NCBI GenBank assembly: GCA_002238605.1
Contig: MPMR01000005.1
Span: 62,001-126,000 of the forward strand
Source of the DNA: BD2-11 clade cluster bacterium bin43
Lineage (GTDB): Bacteria > Gemmatimonadota > Gemmatimonadetes > Longimicrobiales > Gaopeijiaceae
DNA length: 64,000 nucleotides
Direction: 5' to 3'
Positions 54,607-64,000 of this stretch are shown here, one piece after another; within the stretch, counting starts at the first letter, position 1; each line of letters opens with the position of its first letter. The translations under genes were made by a program, and so were the position numbers. The notes beneath the pieces were generated by a model that saw only the letters and a list, made by a program, of their open reading frames with translations, had not been told where the DNA came from and made no database searches.

Positions 54607-55587
54607 ATGGCGGTCATGACCTACCGGGACGCCCTCAACGAGGCGCTCGCGGAGGAGATGGAGCGCGACGACTCCGTTTTCCTCATGGGCGAGGAAGTCG
54701 CCGAGTACGATGGCGCCTACAAGGTGTCCCGGGGCCTGCTCGAGCGCTTCGGCGACGCACGGGTGGTGGACACGCCGATCAGCGAACTCGGCTTCGCCGG
54801 ACTGGGCGTGGGCGCGGCCATGGCCGGGCTCCGGCCCGTCATCGAGTTCATGACCTTCAACTTCGCGTTCCTGGCCCTCGACCAGGTTATCAACAACGCG
54901 GCCAAGACCCACTACATGACCAACGGGCAGCTGCACGTGCCCATCGTCTTTCGCGGACCCAACGGGGCGGCCCTGCAGCTCGCCGCGCAGCACTCGCAGG
55001 CGTGCGAGTCCTACTATGTTCACGCCCCGGGGGTCAAGCTGGTGAATCCGGCGACGCCGTCGGATGCCAAGGGCCTGCTCAAGGCCGCGATTCGCGACGA
55101 CGATCCGGTGGTCGTGATGGAGTCCGAGATGCTCTACAACGCCCGCGGCGACGTTCCCGAGGGCGAGCACTTCGTACCTCTGGGCGTAGCCGATGTGAAG
55201 ATGGAGGGTACGGACGTCACGATCGTCTCGCACGGGCAGATGGTCCATGTGGCGCTTCAGGCGGCCCGCATGCTCGAGAAGGAAGATGTTTCCGCCGAGG
55301 TGCTCGACCTGCGCTCGCTGCGTCCCCTGGACATGGAGGCGATTCTGCGCTCCGTCCACAAGACCAATCGCGCGGTCTACGTGGAGGAAAGCTGGCCGTT
55401 CGTGGGCGTCGGCGCACAGATCGTCGCGCTGATCCAGGACGAGGGCTTCGACGATCTGGACGCGCCGGTGCAGCGGATCACCCAGGCGGACGTGCCCATG
55501 CCCTACGCCAGGAATCTGGAGAAGCAGTCGAAACCGGACGCGGCGCGGGTCGTGGACGCGTGCAGGAAGGTTCTCTACCGCAACTGA
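54607..55587 (+). CDS. pdhB: Pyruvate dehydrogenase E1 beta subunit
   Basis: A 326-aa E1-beta. It shows 'RDALNEALAEEMERDDSVFL', 'GEEVAEYDGAYKVSRGLLER', 'GPNGAALQLAAQHSQACESY' and 'ESWPFVGVGAQIVALIQDEG', all family hallmarks. ATG 54607 is preceded by GGGGAGG; an ATG at 54589 inside pdhA is in frame. It follows pdhA without gap and precedes pdhC by 58 bp. Confidence 0.95.
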   Translation: MAVMTYRDALNEALAEEMERDDSVFLMGEEVAEYDGAYKVSRGLLERFGDARVVDTPISELGFAGLGVGAAMAGLRPVIEFMTFNFAFLALDQVINNAAKTHYMTNGQLHVPIVFRGPNGAALQLAAQHSQACESYYVHAPGVKLVNPATPSDAKGLLKAAIRDDDPVVVMESEMLYNARGDVPEGEHFVPLGVADVKMEGTDVTIVSHGQMVHVALQAARMLEKEDVSAEVLDLRSLRPLDMEAILRSVHKTNRAVYVEESWPFVGVGAQIVALIQDEGFDDLDAPVQRITQADVPMPYARNLEKQSKPDAARVVDACRKVLYRN

Positions 55588-55645
55588 CCCTGGTCGCTCC
55601 ATCCGACGCGTGGCAAACACCGATCCGACCACCCGAGGCTAGTCG

Positions 55646-56974
55646 ATGGCCACCAAAGTGCACATGGAAGCCCTCTCGCCCACCATGGAAGAGGGGCAGG
55701 TCGTCAGGTGGCTCAAGGCGGAGGGTGACCGGATCGCGGCCGGCGAACTGCTGGCCGAGATCGAGACCGACAAGGCGACCATGGAACTCGTTGCGCGCGG
55801 CGACGGCGTGTTGCGGGCCATCCTGCTGAACCAGGGACAGACGGCGCCCGTGGGAGACGTGATCGCCGTCATCGCGGCCGATGACGAAGATGTGTCGGAC
55901 CTGGTGGCGGCGGCGGCCCCGGCTTCGACGGCATCCCCGGCCACGGAGACCGAGGAGGAGCCTGTTCGGGCGGCAGCGCCTTCATCAACGGCTCCCACCA
56001 GCACGCCACCTCCCGGCACACCGCCTTCAACCACGCCGCCAGGTGGCCCGCAGCCCGCACCGCCGGTGGTCCAGGCGACCCTTCCGGCAGAGCCGGCTGC
56101 CGAGGCCCGCAAGGACGGTGAACGGCTGAGGGCGTCACCCCTCGCCCGCCGCCTGGCCCGGGAGGCCGGGCTCCGCCTGGAGGCGGTCGTGGGGTCCGGG
56201 CCCCGGGGCAGAATCGTCAAGCGGGACATCGAGGCCGCGCTGGCCGCCGGGACGGCGACGGCTCCCGCGCCCAGGCCGGACGTCCCGGGCGAGGATTTCG
56301 TGGACGTCCCGCTCACGCAGATACGCAAGACGATCGCGCGCCGGCTGGTCGAGTCCCTGGGGCCAGTGCCGCACTTCTTCCTCACGGCCGATGTCGACAT
56401 GGCCCGGGCAACCGAGCTGCGCCAGCAGTTCAACGAGCTCGAGCTTGGCGCGCGCATCTCCTTCAACGACATCGTCATCAAGGCGACGGCGCTTGCGCTG
56501 GCCCGCCATCCCGAGTGCAACGCGTGGTGGGGTGGCGATCACGTCCGCAGACACAACCGCGTGCACATCGGCGTCGCGGTGGCCATCGACGACGGTCTCA
56601 TCACTCCGGTGGTGCGGGATGCCCATGCGCGCCCGATCGCCGAAATGTCGAACGAGGTGAAGGAGCTGGCGGCCCTGGCGCGAGCGAAGCGGCTGACGCC
56701 GGAGCAGTACACGGGATCCACCTTCTCCATCTCCAACCTGGGGATGTTCGGGATCGAGCAGTTCACCGGGGTCATCAACCCGCCCGAGGCTGGAATCCTG
56801 GCCGTGGGCGCGGTCGAGGATCGGCCGGTGGCGGCCGATGGTCAGGTCGTAGTGCGTCGTCGCATGCGCATGACGATGAGCTGCGACCACCGGATCATCG
56901 ACGGGGCCCAGGGCGCGCGCTTCCTCGCCACGCTGAAGGACATCCTGGAGAAACCGTTGAGCGTGCTGCTCTAG
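55646..56974 (+). CDS. pdhC: Dihydrolipoamide acetyltransferase (E2)
   Basis: A 442-aa E2. One lipoyl domain (1-80) has the lipoylated Lys43 in 'IETDKATMELVARG'; a Pro/Thr/Ala linker follows; the E1/E3-binding domain is at about 155-190 ('ASPLARRLAREAGLRLEAVV'); the catalytic domain ends with 'MSCDHRIIDGAQGARFLATL' carrying the active His and Asp. It is made next to lipA, which lipoylates it. No E3 (dihydrolipoamide dehydrogenase) gene follows. Confidence 0.95.
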   Translation: MATKVHMEALSPTMEEGQVVRWLKAEGDRIAAGELLAEIETDKATMELVARGDGVLRAILLNQGQTAPVGDVIAVIAADDEDVSDLVAAAAPASTASPATETEEEPVRAAAPSSTAPTSTPPPGTPPSTTPPGGPQPAPPVVQATLPAEPAAEARKDGERLRASPLARRLAREAGLRLEAVVGSGPRGRIVKRDIEAALAAGTATAPAPRPDVPGEDFVDVPLTQIRKTIARRLVESLGPVPHFFLTADVDMARATELRQQFNELELGARISFNDIVIKATALALARHPECNAWWGGDHVRRHNRVHIGVAVAIDDGLITPVVRDAHARPIAEMSNEVKELAALARAKRLTPEQYTGSTFSISNLGMFGIEQFTGVINPPEAGILAVGAVEDRPVAADGQVVVRRRMRMTMSCDHRIIDGAQGARFLATLKDILEKPLSVLL

Positions 56975-57040
56975 CAGGCCCGCAGACGAACTCCGCCCGG
57001 CGTTTGCGCGGGTCCGTCCCAGGGGCCGCCAGAGTTCCCG

Positions 57041-57601
57041 TCAGCCGGAAGCGGGTGCCTTCTTCAACCTGTCGAAGAACTTCGCCCGCGCTTTCGCGAC
57101 CTTGGGCGCCACCACCGCGCGACAGTATCCCTGGCCCGGATTGCGAGCGAAGTAGTCGCGGTGATAGGCCTCGGCGGGGAAGAACCGACCGGCCGGAACC
57201 AGCTCGGTCACGATCGGCGAACGCCACACTCCCTCGTCCTCGAGCCCCGCGATCACCTCGCGTGCCACCCCTTCCTGCTCCGCCGAATGATGGAAGATGG
57301 CCGAACGGTACTGGGTGCCCACGTCGGCTCCCTGGCGGTTCAGGGTGGTGGGATCGTGAATCGTGAAGAAGACCTGGAGCAGCTCCCGGAACGAGATCTC
57401 GTCCGGCGAGAACATGATGCGGACCACTTCGGCGTGCCCGGTGGAACCGGTGCAGACCTGCTGGTAGGTCGGCTGGCGCACGTGTCCGCCGGCGTACCCC
57501 GAGTCCACCCGCCGCACGCCCCGCAACTCCAGGTATACCGCCTCCAGGCACCAGAAACATCCCCCGGCCAGCGTCGCGGTCTCGAGCCCCTTCTCGCTCA
57601 T
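57041..57601 (-). CDS. msrA: Peptide methionine-S-sulfoxide reductase MsrA
   Basis: A 186-aa MsrA that repairs oxidised methionine. The catalytic motif is GCFWCLE with Cys15 (nucleophile) and Cys18; a further cysteine in 'PGQGYCRAVVAPK' is a resolving candidate. 'VDSGYAGGHVRQPTYQQVCT' and 'YRSAIFHHSAEQ' are typical. No MsrB is fused or adjacent. Convergent with pdhC. Confidence 0.96.
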   Translation of the reverse strand: MSEKGLETATLAGGCFWCLEAVYLELRGVRRVDSGYAGGHVRQPTYQQVCTGSTGHAEVVRIMFSPDEISFRELLQVFFTIHDPTTLNRQGADVGTQYRSAIFHHSAEQEGVAREVIAGLEDEGVWRSPIVTELVPAGRFFPAEAYHRDYFARNPGQGYCRAVVAPKVAKARAKFFDRLKKAPASG

Positions 57602-57785
57602 CTCGATCGGTCGCCTCCTTCAAGAGCCGTCTGCTTGCAGCTATTATTCGCCGCACTCGTTCCCTCCCCGCGCCCGTGATCGCGGACGGATCCTTCCTGG
57701 AGAGGTTGCCGTGCTGCCGGAAGCCGTGAAGATGACCGCAGAGCGTCAGCGCTACAAGGGGACTTGTGCGCAGGGAGGATTGTGG

Positions 57786-59111
57786 ATGGGCGGAGGACGC
57801 CTGCGCGCCCCGTGCCTGATGGCGGCGGCCATCGTCATTCCGGTGCTCTGGCTGGCTGGCTGCGCCGCCGTGCAACAGGCGCCCGCAGGCGGCGGATCGG
57901 TTGGGGCGGCCACGACCGTCGAGTCGGGCCCGGCCGGCGGCCGCAACGACCCCCGCCATCTCGCCAAGCCCTACGTGGTGGTGGTGTCGTTCGATGGTTT
58001 TCGGCACGACTACATCGAGAGGTTCGACACGCCCAACTTCGACCGCGTGGCGGCCGGGGGCGCTCGCGCCGATGGGCTGATCCCGGTTTTCCCTTCGCTG
58101 ACCTTCCCCGCACACTACTCCATCGCAACCGGGCTCTATCCGGGAACCCATGGGCTGGTCGCCAACACCTTCCATGACCGGGAACTCGATCGCACCTATT
58201 CCCTCTCGGACCGGGAGACCGTGGAGGACGGGGAATGGTACGGAGGAGAGCCGATCTGGGTGACCGCGGAGAAGCAGGGCATGGTGAGCGCGGCCTTCTA
58301 TTTCGTCGGATCCGAAGCCGACGTACAGGACATTCGGCCCAGTTACTGGAAGCGCTTCGACCCGATCATTCCTAACCAAGTGCGCGTCGATACGGTCCTG
58401 ACCTGGCTCGCCCTTGCCGAGCAGGAGCGACCCCATCTCGTCTCCCTGTATTTCGCCGAAGCCGACTACGCCGGACACCGGTTCGGCCCCGGCGAGAGCC
58501 CGGAACTGGCACAGGCGGTCGCGCAGGTGGACCAGGCGCTCGGACGTCTCCTGGACGGTCTGGATGAACTTCCCCACGGCGACCAGGTCTTCGTCCTGCT
58601 GGTCTCCGACCACGGTATGAGCGAGGTCCTTTCCGAGGGGCACTACGCGGTCGACGAAATCGCGGACCTGTCCGGGGTTCGGCTGACGTCCGACGGAACC
58701 GTGGGCATCCTGTTCGTGGAGGGGGGCGAGGAGCGCATCGAGGAACTGCGCACACAACTCGACGAGGGGATGCCGGAGGCGGAGGTCTACCGGCCCGGCG
58801 CAGCTCCAGAGCGACTTCGCCTCAAAGGTCATCCTCGCTTCGGGGATCTGGTGATCGTTCCGGAGGAGGGGTACACGATCGGCATCGGACCTCGCCGGGG
58901 CAGCAGCCGGGGGATGCACGGATGGGATCCCCGGTTCCGGTCCATGCACGGCATCTTCCTTGTTAAGGGGCCCGGCATCGAGGGGGGCACGCGGCTTCCC
59001 CCGATCGAAGGGGTGGACATCTATCCCTTCATGGCCCGGGTGCTCGGTCTCCAGCCTGCCGACGGAATCGAGGGCGATCCGGAGGCGCTGGCGGGGTTGG
59101 GTCGCCGTTAG
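57786..59111 (+). CDS. NPP-type nucleotide pyrophosphatase/phosphodiesterase lipoprotein
   Basis: A 441-aa alkaline phosphatase superfamily enzyme. ATG 57786 is chosen because it opens a lipoprotein signal with lipobox LAGC at Cys26 and has GGGAGG upstream; in-frame starts at 57711 and 57732 would bury the signal. The NPP motifs are 'VVSFDGFRHDYIERFDTPNF', the Thr-nucleophile 'PVFPSLTFPAHYSIATGLYP', 'LYFAEADYAGHRFGP', 'VLLVSDHGMSEV' and 'MHGWDPRFRSMHGIF'. It should cleave nucleotide or phospholipid phosphodiesters outside the cytoplasm. Confidence 0.9.
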   Translation: MGGGRLRAPCLMAAAIVIPVLWLAGCAAVQQAPAGGGSVGAATTVESGPAGGRNDPRHLAKPYVVVVSFDGFRHDYIERFDTPNFDRVAAGGARADGLIPVFPSLTFPAHYSIATGLYPGTHGLVANTFHDRELDRTYSLSDRETVEDGEWYGGEPIWVTAEKQGMVSAAFYFVGSEADVQDIRPSYWKRFDPIIPNQVRVDTVLTWLALAEQERPHLVSLYFAEADYAGHRFGPGESPELAQAVAQVDQALGRLLDGLDELPHGDQVFVLLVSDHGMSEVLSEGHYAVDEIADLSGVRLTSDGTVGILFVEGGEERIEELRTQLDEGMPEAEVYRPGAAPERLRLKGHPRFGDLVIVPEEGYTIGIGPRRGSSRGMHGWDPRFRSMHGIFLVKGPGIEGGTRLPPIEGVDIYPFMARVLGLQPADGIEGDPEALAGLGRR

Positions 59112-59220
59112 GCGCAGCCTCCGAGCCGCTTTCGGGGGCACCTCGGAGGTGTGAGAATTCGGGCCTGGCACCACGGGGCCGGGGGGCCGGTGGAGGTCCG
59201 TTTTTTCTGCCGACCTCCGC

Positions 59221-59249
59221 TTGACACGCTTCGCGGGATTGCTTTACCT
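59221..59249 (+). promoter_or_regulatory. Promoter of the tRNA array (tRNA-fMet)
   Basis: A perfect -35 TTGACA (59221-59226) and TTACCT (59244-59249) 17 bp apart lie 12 bp before the tRNA-fMet gene. Confidence 0.5.
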
Positions 59250-59261
59250 TTCGCTTCTCGT

Positions 59262-59335
<74 letters not shown>

Positions 59336-59343
59336 CTTGAAAG

Positions 59344-59365
59344 CGCCGCCGAATGGCGGCGTTTT
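59344..59365 (+). terminator. Intrinsic terminator after tRNA-fMet
   Basis: Stem CGCCGCC / GGCGGCG with loop GAAT followed by TTTT (59362-59365). It ends the initiator tRNA transcript, separating it from the rest of the array. Confidence 0.75.
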
Positions 59366-59575
59366 CCACGTAGCAGGACGGTTTGACGCAGGCAACAACA
59401 CAGGAGACCGAGGCGAAGATCATGCCGGAAGCGACCGAAATCCGTCGGCCGTGGGCCTTCCAGAGGCCGGGCCGCGCGCGGGCGCTTCGCTGGTTTCCGT
59501 CCGATACGTGGTCGAGCCCTCGCGGGCGGGGAAGCGGGACTCGCCGGTAGCCCCCGGCAGACTCCCGACCCAGCC

Positions 59576-59606
59576 GCCCGCACCGAAAAGGTTCGGGCGT
59601 TTTTTT
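59576..59606 (+). terminator. Intrinsic terminator abutting tRNA-Phe
   Basis: GCCCGCACC (59576-59584) and GGTTCGGGC (59590-59598) form an 8-of-9 bp stem with loop GAAAA, followed by a T-rich run that ends at 59606, the base before tRNA-Phe. No confident gene lies between this and the previous terminator. Confidence 0.7.
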
Positions 59607-59679
59607 GGCCAGGTAGCTCAGTTGGTAGAGCACGCGACTGAAAATCGCGGTGTCGGCGGTTCGATTCCGCCCCTGGCCA
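59607..59679 (+). tRNA. tRNA-Phe (GAA)
   Basis: Acceptor GGCCAGG pairs with CCTGGCC; anticodon loop CTGAAAA gives GAA; T arm GGCGG-TTCGATT-CCGCC. Discriminator A. It begins directly after the T-run of a terminator. Confidence 0.96.
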
Positions 59680-59722
59680 TCTACCGGCTCACCGGCCGGA
59701 GGATGGCCGGGTGTGTGCGCGG

Positions 59723-59795
59723 GGGTCCGTAGCTCAACTGGTAGAGCACCGGTCTCCAAAACCGGGGGTTGGGGGTTCGAGTCCCTCCGGGCCTG
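59723..59795 (+). tRNA. tRNA-Trp (CCA)
   Basis: Acceptor GGGTCCG pairs with CGGGCCT (two G-T pairs); loop TCTCCAA within CCGGT/ACCGG gives anticodon CCA; discriminator G, as expected for Trp. Confidence 0.95.
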
Positions 59796-59811
59796 TACAA
59801 CTGGGGGGAGA

Positions 59812-59883
59812 GCCCTCATCGTCTAACGGCTAGGACACCACTCTTTCAAGGTGGCGGTCGGGGTTCGATTCCCCGTGAGGGCG
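59812..59883 (+). tRNA. tRNA-Glu (TTC)
   Basis: Acceptor GCCCTCA pairs with TGAGGGC; loop CTTTCAA gives TTC; T arm CGGGG-TTCGATT-CCCCG; discriminator G. Confidence 0.96.
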
Positions 59884-59913
59884 TTTGGAAGGACGCGCCA
59901 AGAGCGCGAAACA

Positions 59914-59987
59914 GGGGCTGTAGCTCAGTTGGTTAGAGTGCCGGTCTGTCACACCGGAGGCCGCGGGTTCGAGTCCCGTCAGCCCCG
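59914..59987 (+). tRNA. tRNA-Asp (GTC)
   Basis: Acceptor GGGGCTG pairs with CAGCCCC; anticodon stem CCGGT/ACCGG around loop CTGTCAC gives GTC; discriminator G. Confidence 0.96.
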
Positions 59988-60028
59988 CTTGTTTGTTTCT
60001 TGACAAATCGGGTCATCGGCGAAGGATC

Positions 60029-60101
60029 GGGGCCGTAGCTCAGTTGGGAGAGCGCCTGAATGGCATTCAGGAGGTCAGGGGTTCGATTCCCCTCGGCTCC
60101 A
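60029..60101 (+). tRNA. tRNA-Ala (GGC)
   Basis: Acceptor GGGGCCG pairs with CGGCTCC, including the G3-T70 wobble that marks alanine tRNAs; loop ATGGCAT gives GGC; discriminator A. Confidence 0.96.
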
Positions 60102-60130
60102 TGGCGCAGTCTGTTCGCGAAGGCGAGCGA

Positions 60131-60215
60131 GCTCGGATGGCGGAATTGGTAGACGCGCAGGATTCAGGATCCTGTGGGGGTTAACCCCGTGAGGGTTCGA
60201 GTCCCTCTCCGAGCA
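60131..60215 (+). tRNA. tRNA-Leu (CAG)
   Basis: An 85-nt class II tRNA. Acceptor GCTCGGA pairs with TCCGAGC; stem CAGGA/TCCTG with loop TTCAGGA gives CAG; the long variable arm GGGGTTAACCCC is evident; discriminator A. Confidence 0.96.
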
Positions 60216-60264
60216 TGACAGGCCGCGGCGGCAAGCGGCGGCAGCGTTTCGATGGAGGACATTT

Positions 60265-60348
60265 GCCCACGTGCTGGAATTGGTAGACAGGCTGGTTTGA
60301 GGGACCAGTGTCGGAAACGGCGTACAGGTTCGAGTCCTGTCGTGGGCA
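60265..60348 (+). tRNA. tRNA-Leu (GAG)
   Basis: An 84-nt class II tRNA. Acceptor GCCCACG pairs with CGTGGGC; stem CTGGT/ACCAG with loop TTGAGGG gives GAG; variable arm around GTCGGAAACGGC; discriminator A. Confidence 0.95.
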
Positions 60349-60400
60349 CTTGCCGGCCATCAACGGTCGGCCTTCCTTGCCGAAGGCGGTCGGCAAATCA

Positions 60401-60474
60401 GCGCCCGTAGCTCAATTGGACAGAGCGCTTGACTACGGATCAAGAGGTTGGGGGTTCGAGTCCTCCCGGGCGTA
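60401..60474 (+). tRNA. tRNA-Arg (ACG)
   Basis: Acceptor GCGCCCG pairs with CGGGCGT (one G-T); stem CTTGA/TCAAG with loop CTACGGA gives ACG, which needs A34-to-inosine editing by TadA. Discriminator A. Confidence 0.96.
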
Positions 60475-60519
60475 TTCCCCTCCGGGGGAGGTGAAGGCCA
60501 GGACCTGTTTTCCGGCCGA

Positions 60520-60593
60520 GGGCGCGTAGCTCAGCTGGTTAGAGCGCTACGTTGACATCGTAGAGGTCAGAGGTTCGAGTCCTCTCGCGCCCA
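60520..60593 (+). tRNA. tRNA-Val (GAC)
   Basis: Acceptor GGGCGCG pairs with CGCGCCC; stem CTACG/CGTAG with loop TTGACAT gives GAC; discriminator A. Confidence 0.96.
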
Positions 60594-60630
60594 TGCGCCG
60601 ACGCGGCATCCGTGGAGGCGAGCAGGGGCA

Positions 60631-60703
60631 GGGGCCGTAGCTCAGTTGGGAGAGCGCAGCGTTCGCAACGCTGAGGTCAGGGGTTCGATTCCCCTCGGCT
60701 CCA
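60631..60703 (+). tRNA. tRNA-Ala (CGC)
   Basis: Acceptor GGGGCCG pairs with CGGCTCC with the G3-T70 wobble; loop TTCGCAA gives CGC; discriminator A. Nearly identical to the tRNA-Ala (GGC) gene outside the anticodon arm, suggesting duplication. Confidence 0.96.
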
Positions 60704-60746
60704 TTCCCGGTTGGCCGGCGAGATTCGCGAGGCGGTCGGTATGGTC

Positions 60747-60819
60747 GCCACCATAGCTCAGCTGGTAGAGCACGTCACTCGTAATGACGGGGTCGTCGGT
60801 TCGAATCCGACTGGTGGCT
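60747..60819 (+). tRNA. tRNA-Thr (CGT)
   Basis: Acceptor GCCACCA pairs with TGGTGGC; stem CGTCA/TGACG with loop CTCGTAA gives CGT; discriminator T. Confidence 0.95.
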
Positions 60820-60863
60820 TGCCGCTTGCCAGCCGGCCTGGCGAGCGTAAAATTGGGATTGGA

Positions 60864-60936
60864 TGCCCCGTGGTGTAACTGGCAACACGTCTGACTCTGG
60901 ATCAGAAGAGTCCTGGTTCGATCCCAGGCGGGGCAA
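60864..60936 (+). tRNA. tRNA-Gln (CTG)
   Basis: Acceptor TGCCCCG pairs with CGGGGCA, with the weak T1-A72 pair used by glutaminyl synthetase; stem TCTGA/TCAGA with loop CTCTGGA gives CTG; discriminator A. Confidence 0.95.
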
Positions 60937-60940
60937 TATC

Positions 60941-61026
60941 GGAGGGGTGGCCGAGTGGCTTAAGGCGGCGCCCTGCTAAGGCGTTGACCCGAGAGGGTCT
61001 CGTGGGTTCGAATCCCACCCCCTCCG
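60941..61026 (+). tRNA. tRNA-Ser (GCT)
   Basis: An 86-nt class II tRNA. Acceptor GGAGGGG pairs with CCCCTCC; stem GCGCC/GGCGT with loop CTGCTAA gives GCT; long variable arm CCCGAGAGGG; discriminator G. A 15-nt hairpin and then an inverted copy of its own 3' end follow. Confidence 0.96.
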
Positions 61027-61362
61027 CTTGCGGGCGAAGCCCGCGATCAGAGGGGGCGTGATTCGAACCCGGGGTTCGAGCCTCCGGTGCTTCGCATCCT
61101 CGGCTCACCTTCGGCCCGGCTGGCGCCGGCCTCGGTTGCGAATCCCGCGGGCAGATATCACCGGGCACGGTCGCGGGCCGCTATCCGAGTCCAGGATTGA
61201 GGTTGCCGGTCGGGCATCTCGTCCTGGGTTCTGAGGCCCCGGCTTCACTTCGTTCCTTGGGCGGGTTGCTTCTGACCTCGCGTCAGATATGCTCCGCTGC
61301 GGTCAAGCCGGCCGTGCTTCTCTCACCGGTTTCCCTGCAGGTTGTAGTGGCCACAATTGTTC
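61027..61362 (+). other. 336-bp gene-free spacer with tRNA-Ser-derived element
   Basis: No credible gene. It holds a tight hairpin GCGGGC-GAA-GCCCGC (61030-61044), the structured element at 61048-61152 and a degenerate second copy from about 61178 to 61290 (shared 'TTGAGGTTGC' block at 61197-61206, then decayed). Reading frames over it are by-products of tRNA-like sequence. Confidence 0.6.
61048..61152 (+). repeat. tRNA-Ser 3'-end-flanked structured element, copy 1
   Basis: A 105-nt unit. Its left end (61048-61069) is an inverted copy of the 22-nt 3' end of the upstream tRNA-Ser (19 of 22); its right end (61134-61152) is a direct partial copy with one extra G. The interior shares a 41-nt identical block (61078-61118) with copy 2 and forms two hairpins, one with stem GGCC(C)GGC/GCCGGCC. 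Confidence 0.7.
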
Positions 61363-61446
61363 GGACGGGTGGCCGAGTGGCTTAAGGCGCACGATTGGAA
61401 ATCGTGTGGGCTCACGCCCACGTGGGTTCGAATCCCACCCCGTCCG
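61363..61446 (+). tRNA. tRNA-Ser (GGA)
   Basis: An 84-nt class II tRNA. Acceptor GGACGGG pairs with CCCGTCC; stem CACGA/TCGTG with loop TTGGAAA gives GGA; variable arm GGGCTCACGCCC; discriminator G. Its last 22 nt reappear inverted 20 nt downstream. Confidence 0.96.
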
Positions 61447-61465
61447 CTGACGGCGGAGCCGCCCT

Positions 61466-61568
61466 CGGACGGGGTGGGCTTCGAACCCAGGGTTGAGCCT
61501 CCGGTGCTTCGCATCCTCGGCTCACCTTCGGCCCGCTGGCGCGGGCCTCGGTTGCGAATCCCACCCCG
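61466..61568 (+). repeat. tRNA-Ser 3'-end-flanked structured element, copy 2
   Basis: A 103-nt unit, the best preserved. The left end (61466-61487) is the inverted 3' end of tRNA-Ser (GGA), 21 of 22 identical; the right end (61550-61568) is a direct copy with one inserted G. Left and right ends pair as a long stem closing two hairpins; the stem GGCCCGC/GCGGGCC (loop TGGC) differs from copy 1 by compensating changes. Confidence 0.75.
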
Positions 61569-61589
61569 GGTGAGATACAACGGGACACG

Positions 61590-61694
61590 GTAGGCGGCCG
61601 GTCTTCGAACCTAGAGTTGAGGTTGCGGGCGCTTTGCGTCCCCGGCCCGCCTTCGGCACCGCTGCGCGGCCACTCGGCTGCGAATCCCACCCCG
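61590..61694 (+). repeat. tRNA-Ser 3'-end-flanked structured element, copy 3
   Basis: A 105-nt unit in tandem with copy 2. The right end (61676-61694, continuing to 61697) again copies the tRNA-Ser 3' end (CGAATCCCACCCCGTCC exact); the left end keeps only the CTTCGAACC core (61603-61611). The interior is diverged but keeps GC-rich hairpins (GCGGGC ... GCCCGC). Confidence 0.65.
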
Positions 61695-61826
61695 TCCTTG
61701 GTTCGGACGAGCTGGAGGCTTGGGAGGGCGAATCCTAGGCCCTTTCCGCCGGGGGAATCACCTTGCCGGGTGGGTGGAGCACCTGCCAATTGTTTGCATC
61801 GCCGTCTACGGGCGGCACCCACATTT

Positions 61827-61900
61827 CGGGGCGTGGCTCAGTCCGGTAGAGCGCTGCGTTCGGGTCGCAGAGGTCCCCGGTTCAAATCCGGGCGCCCCGA
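61827..61900 (+). tRNA. tRNA-Pro (CGG)
   Basis: Acceptor CGGGGCG pairs with CGCCCCG; stem CTGCG/CGCAG with loop TTCGGGT gives CGG; T arm CCCGG-TTCAAAT-CCGGG; discriminator A. Confidence 0.96.
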
Positions 61901-61957
61901 TTGAAGAACAGTTGGAGAAGATTCTCCGTCCTTGAGCCGATCGGCCCGGTTTCGTCC

Positions 61958-62040
61958 GGAGGCGTAGTCTAATTGGTAAGGCACCGCACTCGAAATGCGG
62001 CGGGCGAAAGCCCTTGGGGGTTCGAGTCCCCCCGCCTCCG
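61958..62040 (+). tRNA. tRNA-Ser (CGA)
   Basis: An 83-nt class II tRNA. Acceptor GGAGGCG pairs with CGCCTCC; stem CCGCA/TGCGG with loop CTCGAAA gives CGA; variable arm GGGCGAAAGCCC; discriminator G. Unlike the other two tRNA-Ser genes it is not followed by a tRNA-derived element. Last tRNA of the array. Confidence 0.95.
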
Positions 62041-62146
62041 CTGCCATTCCGGTGTCCGTCCCCGCGCCCTCCCATGACCGGTCGGGGCGACGATCATCAC
62101 GGTCGCAGCTGGCACATGGGCATCTGATCGCCGGGAGGTCCAGGCC

Positions 62147-63004
62147 ATGCTCGGGCTCGATTTCATCGCCCATCCCCTGTCAGGCACGCCGTTCGGGACC
62201 GCGCTCGAGTTGTGCCTGGTGCTCGCGCTGGTGGCCTGGCTCCTGTCCGTGATCACCCGCGAGGTCTCCTGGATCGACCGCCTCTGGTCCATTTGTCCAC
62301 CGGTCTACTGCCTGATCGTGGCGTTTGCGCTGGATTTCAACTCGCCGCGCGTGAATCTCATGACGGTGCTTGCGGTCCTGTGGGGCATCCGCCTGACCTA
62401 CAACTTCGCCCGCAAGGGCGGGTACCGGCCGGGCGGGGAGGACTACCGGTGGGCGCACGTCCGCAAACAGTATGGTCCGGTGGGCTTCCAGCTGCTCAGC
62501 GTCACCTTCGTCCATCCCGGCCAGATGCTGCTCATCTGGCTGTTCACCTCCCCGATCCACCGCGCCTGGCAGTTCCCCGACGCGCCGCTCGGCTGGTTTG
62601 ACTACCTGGCGGCGGCTCTGTTCCTGACCCTGCTTATCGGCGAAACCTTTGCCGACAGGCAGATGTGGGACTTCCAGCAGGACAAGAAGCGACGGATTGC
62701 CAACGGCGAAGACGTCCGGCAGCCGTTCATGACCAACGGGCTCTATCGGTACTCCCGGCACCCCAACTACTTCTGCGAGATCGCCCTGTGGTGGGTGTTC
62801 TACCTGTTCGGGGTCGCCGCCTCCGGTGAATGGCTGCACTGGACGGGGCTTGGCTGCATCGGCCTCACGCTGCTGTTCATTCCGTCCCTTCGCATGACTG
62901 AAGCGATCTCTGCGGAAAAGTATCCCGGCTACCGTGACTACCAGGCGGCCGTCCCGGCGTTGATCCCGCTGCCTCGGAAGGACAGGGCAAAGGCTGCCGG
63001 TTGA
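62147..63004 (+). CDS. DUF1295 membrane protein (steroid 5-alpha-reductase-like)
   Basis: A 285-aa integral membrane protein with about six hydrophobic segments. The C-terminal region 'MTNGLYRYSRHPNYFCEIAL' and 'SAEKYPGYRDYQAAVPALIP' is the hallmark shared by DUF1295, steroid 5-alpha-reductases and isoprenylcysteine methyltransferases. It may reduce or methylate a lipid substrate, but this cannot be decided. ATG 62147 lies about 100 bp after the last tRNA, with GGGAGG upstream. Confidence 0.87.
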   Translation: MLGLDFIAHPLSGTPFGTALELCLVLALVAWLLSVITREVSWIDRLWSICPPVYCLIVAFALDFNSPRVNLMTVLAVLWGIRLTYNFARKGGYRPGGEDYRWAHVRKQYGPVGFQLLSVTFVHPGQMLLIWLFTSPIHRAWQFPDAPLGWFDYLAAALFLTLLIGETFADRQMWDFQQDKKRRIANGEDVRQPFMTNGLYRYSRHPNYFCEIALWWVFYLFGVAASGEWLHWTGLGCIGLTLLFIPSLRMTEAISAEKYPGYRDYQAAVPALIPLPRKDRAKAAG

Positions 63005-63121
63005 GCTGAAACCGGCGACGTCCCGGGATCCATCTTCCGCCCGGTGCCCCCTCCGCTCGCCCCGCCCCTGCTCCCGGCATAACTTGCCTGTTCGGGTCAA
63101 TTCGTTACCGGGAGGTGCCTC

Positions 63122-64000
63122 ATGTTCGTAACCGACGACTCCAAGCTTGCCATCAGCCTCGCCATGGTACTCGTTCTCGCAGCAGGGGCCTGTGCTCCGG
63201 CCGACGGCGGAGGGGACGAATCCGCGGAGGCGGAAATGGCCGATCCCGCCGCCGTGACCGATCCCGCCATGGCCGGCGATCTGCCCAACCCCACGTCGGA
63301 GGTCATCACCGGCTTCGGACCGCTTCCGGATGACAGGGAGTGGGGGTCCACCGCGGGCGTGGACATCGGGCCGGACGGGCAGCTGTGGGCCTACGACCGC
63401 TGCGGCGGCAACGCGCTCACCGACGGCTGCGGCACCTCCGACGTGGATCCCATCCTCAAGTTTGACCGGGAAACCGGCGAGGTGCTGACCAGCTTCGGGG
63501 CCGGGCTCTTCATCCTCCCCCATGGACTGCACGTGGATCAGGACGGGAACGTCTGGGTCACCGACTCATCGGGTGACGCGGAGCAGACCAAGGGCCATCA
63601 GGTCTTCAAGTTCAGCCCCGAGGGCGAGATCCTCATGACGCTGGGGACGCGCGGTGTCGCCGGGGATGGTCCGGATCACTTCAACCAACCCTGCGATGTC
63701 ATCACCACGCCCGAAGGCTACATCTTCGTCTCCGACGGCCACAGCGGCCAGAACGAGAACGTTCCTCCCGGCGCGACCGGTCGCATCGTGAAGTTCAGCC
63801 CCGAGGGCGAGTACATGATGGAATGGGGCCAGATCGGGACCGGACCCGGGGAATTCCGGACGCCGCACGCGTTGGAGATGGACTCCCAGGGTCGCCTCTT
63901 CGTGGCGGACCGCGGCAACCACCGCATCCAGATCTTCGACCAGGAAGGCAACCTCCTCGACACGTACCACCAGTTCAGCCGCATCAGCGGGCTTTTCATC
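63122..64000 (+). CDS. NHL-repeat lipoprotein (partial, runs off the window)
   Basis: At least 293 aa, open at the window end. The signal peptide ends in a lipobox ('LVLAAGAC', Cys24). NHL beta-propeller blades follow, for example 'GLHVDQDGNVWVTDSSGD', 'QVFKFSPEGEILMTLGTRG' and 'ALEMDSQGRLFVADRGNHRI'. The pattern resembles peptidyl-alpha-hydroxyglycine alpha-amidating lyase-like proteins, but no catalytic role can be claimed. ATG 63122 follows GGGAGG. Confidence 0.85.
   Translation, partial: MFVTDDSKLAISLAMVLVLAAGACAPADGGGDESAEAEMADPAAVTDPAMAGDLPNPTSEVITGFGPLPDDREWGSTAGVDIGPDGQLWAYDRCGGNALTDGCGTSDVDPILKFDRETGEVLTSFGAGLFILPHGLHVDQDGNVWVTDSSGDAEQTKGHQVFKFSPEGEILMTLGTRGVAGDGPDHFNQPCDVITTPEGYIFVSDGHSGQNENVPPGATGRIVKFSPEGEYMMEWGQIGTGPGEFRTPHALEMDSQGRLFVADRGNHRIQIFDQEGNLLDTYHQFSRISGLFI

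Follow-up and report, generated by a model that had tools for sequence, protein, structure and literature searches.

tRNA-Ser trailer repeats in Gemmatimonadota that share the layout of the tyrT/RtT repeats of Escherichia coli

Introduction

In Gemmatimonadota, a number of tRNA-Ser genes and some tRNA-Pro genes are directly followed by folded repeat units of about 100–190 nt that contain two or more hairpins and end in a copy of the 3′ end of the tRNA gene upstream. By analogy with E. coli, these units are reasonably likely to represent tRNA-trailer repeats of the tyrT/RtT type in another phylum, with a copy number that would change via the copied tRNA end. So far, work on the tyrT repeats and the RtT RNA has dealt mainly with enterobacteria. 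Their layout is now seen in a further phylum, at all four Ser isoacceptors and a Pro tRNA, with ends that suit each tRNA and a covarying core in common. This provides many natural replicates, with which functional RNA, selfish DNA and mutational debris can be tested against one another as explanations of tRNA-trailer repeats, and gives comparative material that is absent for the E. coli case.

The units were recognized in a stretch of 64,000 nt (hereafter the window; positions 62,001 to 126,000 of the forward strand of contig MPMR01000005.1, assembly GCA_002238605.1) from BD2-11 clade cluster bacterium bin43, a member of the Gaopeijiaceae. The genus of this bacterium is referred to below as the window genus.

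Organization of the Repeats in the Window

A tRNA array of 17 genes is located at 59262–62041 of the window. Repeats follow tRNA-Ser (GCT) and tRNA-Ser (GGA), and are absent after tRNA-Ser (CGA) at 61958–62041. All the features described here are on the + strand. The tRNA-Ser (GCT) gene (60941–61027; ARAGORN; Rfam tRNA, 59.5 bits) is the source of the copied 3′ end of the first unit, and directly 3′ of it lies a spacer hairpin, GCGGGC-GAA-GCCCGC (61028–61045); on inspection of their sequences, relatives have a hairpin with other letters at this place. The left arm (61048–61070), which was delimited by repeat search and comparison with relatives, is the acceptor/T-arm 3′ end of tRNA-Ser in inverted orientation. 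It is followed by an interior (61071–61133) containing a P2 hairpin (GAGCC...GGCTC) and a P3 hairpin (GGCCGGC/GCCGGCC type), and by the right arm, termed D (61134–61146; GGTTGCGAATCCC).

The tRNA-Ser (GGA) gene (61363–61447; ARAGORN) is likewise followed by a spacer hairpin (61448–61464), which forms the inner part of inverted repeat I1, and then by a left arm (61466–61488) in which GGAC matches the GGA acceptor (GAG in the GCT and TGA units), the P2 hairpin (61489–61528), the P3 hairpin (61530–61547) and D (61550–61568), a direct copy of the 3′ part of the tRNA (repeats I6 and D6). A diverged second unit consists of a left arm and interior at 61600–61675 (repeat D8; 81% to unit 1) and a D at 61676–61697 (CGAATCCCACCCCGTCC; repeat I5) that is identical to tRNA-Ser (GGA).

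Most of this arrangement had been noticed in an earlier, sequence-only reading of the window. The inverted copies that it reported were recovered as pair I2 after GCT (arms 61004–61035 and 61039–61070, 84% complementary) and pair I1 after GGA (arms 61423–61454 and 61458–61489, 88% complementary). Its direct copies start at 61134, 61550 and 61676, the last two being 126 nt apart; all are present, with the qualification that D after the GCT gene has diverged in its acceptor part. The interior block said to be shared by copies 1 and 2 comprises 41 identical nt within a 46-nt match at 96%, and the change in the interior hairpin, GGCTGGCGCC versus CGCTGGCGCG, is as described. The second unit after GGA (~61600–61697) has a badly decayed left arm, and tRNA-Ser (TGA), on a different contig of the same genome, is followed by a further two units.

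The stretch between the GCT unit and tRNA-Ser (GGA), at 61223–61345, resembles the stretch at the same place in two other genomes (G003, locus L045; G004, locus L049), and is possibly a second conserved spacer block.

Distribution in the Genome, the Genus and the Phylum

In the host genome (4.47 Mb, 65 contigs), copies of a tRNA's own 3′ end were found downstream of three of the 47 distinct tRNA genes, those for tRNA-Ser GCT, GGA and TGA. Nine of ten same-genus genomes carry the element, always directly 3′ of tRNA-Ser GCT, GGA or TGA; the tenth is 67% complete, and the nine are those with readable tRNA-Ser downstream regions. A BLAST search with the interior of the window-genus units gave no match in other genera, where the units downstream of tRNA-Ser genes have the same plan but a different interior. 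Such same-plan units occur widely among the other genera of the family, after Ser and some Pro genes, and are also present in a second family belonging to the class.

A test for copies of the own 3′ end covered all tRNA genes in 82 loci from other genomes. Copies were present for Ser TGA (21 of 59 genes), Ser GCT (3 of 18), Ser GGA (2 of 20), Ser CGA (2 of 18) and Pro CGG (4 of 20), and none was detected after about 130 tRNA genes other than Ser and Pro; a control using the 3′ end of a different tRNA gave one match in the same loci. This single control match, the confinement to Ser and Pro in other genera and the small proportion of tRNA genes with such copies in the host genome indicate that the repeats are not due to chance. 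A pattern representing a tRNA-Ser 3′ end that occurs twice was run on 395 genomes from the phylum and matched in 40, belonging to two families (f1 and f7), some of these matches being merely adjacent tRNA-Ser genes, and no match was obtained in families f2–f5 or with a reversed control pattern.

A dispersed element of the MITE or SINE kind had been among the suggestions of the sequence-only reading. The dispersal away from a parent gene that characterizes MITE, REP or SINE elements is not seen, as every full-length match lies behind a tRNA-Ser gene in this genome and in three near-complete relatives, the single-contig genomes G080 and G034 and the two-contig genome G082, and that suggestion finds no support.

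A genome-wide pattern scan detected 15 loci, 10 of them in relatives. The five others, four without a tRNA gene and one with a tRNA-Ser nearby, were taken as chance matches, because a 22-base pattern as loose as this, with a gap of variable length, should match a few times in a collection of this kind. A plasmid search returned tRNA-sized matches only.

Three records titled as Gammaproteobacteria (VXNP01, JAPPHB01 and VYDD01) fall in the same genus as genomes titled as Gemmatimonadetes (JAJDXG, JAJEBS, JAJDVR and JAJDYN), and are probably mislabelled.

Unit Anatomy and Fitting of the Ends to the Local tRNA

The plan of the unit is common to the 69 units collected for anatomy: it starts just after the tRNA and ends at D, with hairpins in between. 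D usually begins at the T-arm ATCC and extends as far as the discriminator base. The start takes several forms. In the window genus and in genus g25, it is acceptor/T-arm sequence in inverted orientation; in family f7, the 5′ half of the T-arm is copied in direct orientation, in some units together with part of the variable arm; and some units include both. Many f1 units, at Ser and Pro tRNAs alike, have the skeleton TTCGAGCCGAG – hairpin – GAGACGACCGAG – hairpin – GGTCAATCC. The window genus has an interior of its own, common to its loci with different tRNA ends (Ser GCT, GGA and TGA). Most D copies after GCT and TGA in this genus are devoid of the acceptor part, and the left arms still match their own tRNA even where D has lost it.

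The correspondence between arms and local tRNA extends to single bases. In the window genus, the left arm matches the acceptor of its own tRNA better than that of the other Ser type at 20 of 20 occupied loci, a score that depends on one diagnostic base at three orthologous loci. In g25-type units, a T in D is matched by A at left-arm base 7 (GCT-type CCCACTCCC) and a C in D mostly by G, and in the four GGA units of the g25 genus with G at the corresponding place of D, left-arm base 4 is C or T. The arms of a Pro unit (L026) carry the T-loop variant of that tRNA, TTCAA. The ends of the unit are fitted to each tRNA, and the folded core is common to the units and apparently conserved as RNA.

Reduced and irregular forms were also observed. 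In the tRNA-Ser TGA units of G003 and G010 (L051, 693–860; L052, 721–890), both interior hairpins are lost, leaving a 62-nt left arm:D hairpin. Very short units of 62–73 nt, mostly consisting of the left arm:D hairpin, are found in L029 (Ser GCT and Pro), L182, L210 and L213/L228 (Pro), and may be the simplest form of the element. Tandem duplication after tRNA-Ser CGA occurs in L025 and L029; in L025, a direct copy lies ~166–188 nt downstream, the tRNA 3′ end and a terminator-like hairpin being duplicated in the absence of the usual core. In G001, a tRNA-Ser TGA gene seems to be split by ~83 nt (L047; G001:C482:1562–1741) with a 12-nt overlap at tRNA positions 19–30, which appears to be an insertion or an assembly error.

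Folding and Covariation

RNAalifold returned no structure on the divergent cores, and stems were therefore read by landmark and counted on genus-level alignment. In 18 g25-type units, P1 (left arm:D), P2 and P3 yield 442 standard-pair cells; 1000 shuffles, made on related sequences with kinship ignored, average 411 and never exceed 423. Several pairs of P2 and P3 have changed on both sides, and the two stems together contain 20 G-U versus 4 A-C cells, nine of the 20 G-U cells coming from one base pair. A structure formed only in DNA would give equal numbers of both, as each G-T of one strand corresponds to A-C in the complement. The excess of G-U thus supports the idea that the tRNA-sense RNA is what folds.

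Base pairs at the base of P3 differ as pairs between genera (GACC/GGTC, GAGC/GCTC, GATC/GATC and GGCC/GGCC), in a landmark count that includes some misparsed rows. In the window genus, hairpin 1 alternates among GAGCC/GGCTC, GAGGC/GCCTC and GAGGT/ACCTC, and hairpin 2 shows a C-G/G-C exchange. The variable cells of these hairpins contain ~7 G-U versus 2 A-C, numbers that leave out P1 and two largely fixed G-U columns and are too few to stand alone. The sequence-only reading had supposed, from the copies in the window, that a folded nucleic acid is maintained, and had proposed a comparison of relatives at their tRNA-Ser loci. That comparison found the unit in other genomes with paired substitutions in its stems, and the covarying stems in two separate genus groups, together with the asymmetry of G-U over A-C, sustain the supposition.

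These data bear on the idea that the units are a mutational by-product, in which template switching and slippage at the near-palindromic T-arm leave inverted and direct copies to drift, and the compensating changes in hairpins result from quasi-palindrome correction, one arm being repaired from the other. Such a process would fit the order of inverted and then direct copies, the arms that follow the local tRNA and the existence of decayed and shortened copies. It is quite improbable, however: it does not account for a non-tRNA interior that is common to Ser GCT, GGA and TGA loci and can be aligned between genera and with Pro units, and it leaves the restriction to Ser and Pro and the G-U excess (20:4) without explanation.

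Gain and Loss of Units

Comparison of occupied and unoccupied sites shows where the unit is joined to its surroundings. At tRNA-Ser GGA, G004 is unoccupied, and in G009 the same downstream flank starts right after D. At tRNA-Ser GCT, G269 is unoccupied and G277 has one unit, with an identical 31-nt flank after D. As the flank continues directly after D in occupied sites, the tRNA 3′ end is the exact point at which the unit was either gained or lost. Units are also arranged in tandem in varying number, including two identical 131-nt units after Ser TGA in G080, three units after Ser TGA in G277/L243, tandem units after Ser CGA in L222 and two units after GGA in G066.

Integration of tRNA-targeted elements likewise repeats the 3′ end of the tRNA in direct orientation and restores the tRNA gene. 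The unit could be selfish DNA, namely a minimal integrative element or an att-site remnant inserted by recombination at the tRNA T-loop/3′ end; the repeats would then be of the kind left by islands at tRNA genes and ssrA, and the folded core would be a recognition structure or a single-stranded DNA structure. Direct repeats running from the T-loop to the 3′ end, precise insertion with unoccupied sites, tandem units and one interior common to loci with different tRNA ends are all consistent with such an origin. Even so, we consider it unlikely: the units are too short for an integrase gene, and the ends match different tRNAs, unlike what would be expected from a single attachment site. In addition, a search of viral contigs for the patterns found no comparable unit, matching only two adjacent tRNA-Ser genes, and the wobble asymmetry favours RNA over a strand-symmetric DNA hairpin.

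A Putative Small RNA Released from the tRNA Trailer

In the RtT-type reading, recombination or slippage between D and the 3′ end of the tRNA would add or remove units, always leaving an intact tRNA gene. The unit would be transcribed as the trailer of the tRNA precursor and its RNA would fold into a junction closed by left arm:D, after which tRNA 3′-end processing would free a small RNA with its end at D, as in the annotation of RttR in E. coli. Judging from this analogy, the RtT-type unit is probably released as a small RNA during tRNA processing. A processed small RNA had been one of the options of the sequence-only reading and is the best fit among them, as the annotated 3′ end of E. coli RttR is the CCA end of the repeated tRNA tail. 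The putative RNA would most likely either regulate in trans, a role that has been proposed for RtT, or influence the maturation of its own tRNA.

Some observations point the other way. The end of the RNA would not be strictly conserved, given that most window-genus D copies after GCT and TGA have no acceptor part. The interiors resemble RtT weakly, most alignments scoring no higher than shuffled sequence (median Z 0.6, best 4.0). The very different interiors between genera and the cut-down units (G003/G010 TGA; 62–65 nt in L029 and L182) suit neutral turnover as well as function.

An effect on the tRNA might also be exerted in cis, by a switch on its maturation, another option of the sequence-only reading: pairing of the left arm with the acceptor strand and T-arm would block folding or 3′ processing until the left arm is taken up by D. 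That the inverted copy can pair with the tRNA itself, as already envisaged from the window, is borne out in folding prediction: the predicted pairing between the tRNA 3′ end and the trailer is 0.73–1.00 in most occupied f1 loci and 0.26 in the unoccupied G004, with lower values in L220 (0.65) and in the f7 unit L222 at Ser CGA (0.36). A readout of the acceptor stem was near zero even at the unoccupied site and was discarded as uninformative. The left arms that match their own tRNA despite a reduced D would suit a switch as well. However, the pairing is an equilibrium prediction that takes no account of modifications, proteins, co-transcriptional folding or kinetics, and the same calculation with D added does not release the tRNA. 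Moreover, units of the sister family often have no inverted acceptor part. We regard a cis switch as very improbable, and release of a small RNA remains the preferred reading.

Comparison with Known Systems

Rfam scans assigned no family to the element. With RF00391 (RtT; cut-off 45 bits), the best score in eight related genomes was 18 bits, below threshold, and two full-length matches of 17.8 bits in G277 are its tandem tRNA-Ser TGA units; 10 loci searched at E ≤ 5 and positions 55000–64000 of the window searched at E ≤ 1 gave no RtT match. Matches to the sX4 sRNA (RF02223) in L223/L139 reached 47–52 bits against a gathering threshold of 70, mainly by aligning the tRNA-Ser body, and this candidate was rejected together with other weak sX4, mir-3179 and plastid matches, which were below threshold and driven by tRNA or hairpins.

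Genomic islands at ssrA in Dehalococcoides (PMC3146451) resemble the present units in the T-loop boundary, the direct repeat of the 3′ end, tandem stacking and the intact gene. Such islands at tRNA/ssrA genes differ in carrying genes including a recombinase, for which the Gemmatimonadota units, at ~100–190 nt, have no room, and the units are distinguished by a conserved fold and an inverted arm. The 3′ external transcribed spacer of E. coli leuZ, an sRNA sponge, is similar in being a tRNA trailer with a possible regulatory role. To our knowledge, the leuZ spacer has no repeat structure and no copied tRNA end.

The closest counterpart is provided by the tyrT/RtT repeats, and the statement of the sequence-only reading that no described family fits has to be withdrawn in terms of layout. 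E. coli MG1655 has three 178-nt tandem repeats after tyrV and one further unit after tyrT, and all four score 133–138 bits with RF00391. In each unit, a spacer, a left arm GGGGAAGGAT and the repeated 5′ half of the T-arm (AAGGTTCGA) are followed by hairpins and then by AATCCTTCCCCCACCACCA, which is the tRNA-Tyr 3′ end; the annotated RttR RNA ends at the copied CCA. RtT is present in 4,655 of 5,426 genomes, with one to nine copies per E. coli genome that has any. Bosl and Kersten (1991; cited in PMC4986893) reported RtT as an RNA that is freed from tRNA transcripts and affects the stringent response.

As in Gemmatimonadota, the E. coli unit is located directly 3′ of a tRNA gene and ends with a copy of its 3′ end, which in E. 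coli agrees in 19 of the last 20 nt; it also has an inverted left arm, a copy of the T-arm 5′ half, hairpins between these and D, and a tandem arrangement with varying copy number. The differences are that the E. coli units follow Tyr rather than Ser and Pro tRNAs and include a copied CCA, whereas no CCA is encoded in the tRNA genes considered here. By layout, as read from sequence, the Gemmatimonadota units and RtT are of the same kind, their common ancestry being unproven. A wider proposal, which we put forward tentatively and hold to be rather doubtful, is that both belong to one widespread class of tRNA-tailored RNA elements, in which a conserved folded core would be re-fitted with the 3′ end of any tRNA gene upstream of it (Tyr, Ser or Pro), released by the tRNA processing of the host and varied in copy number via the copied end.
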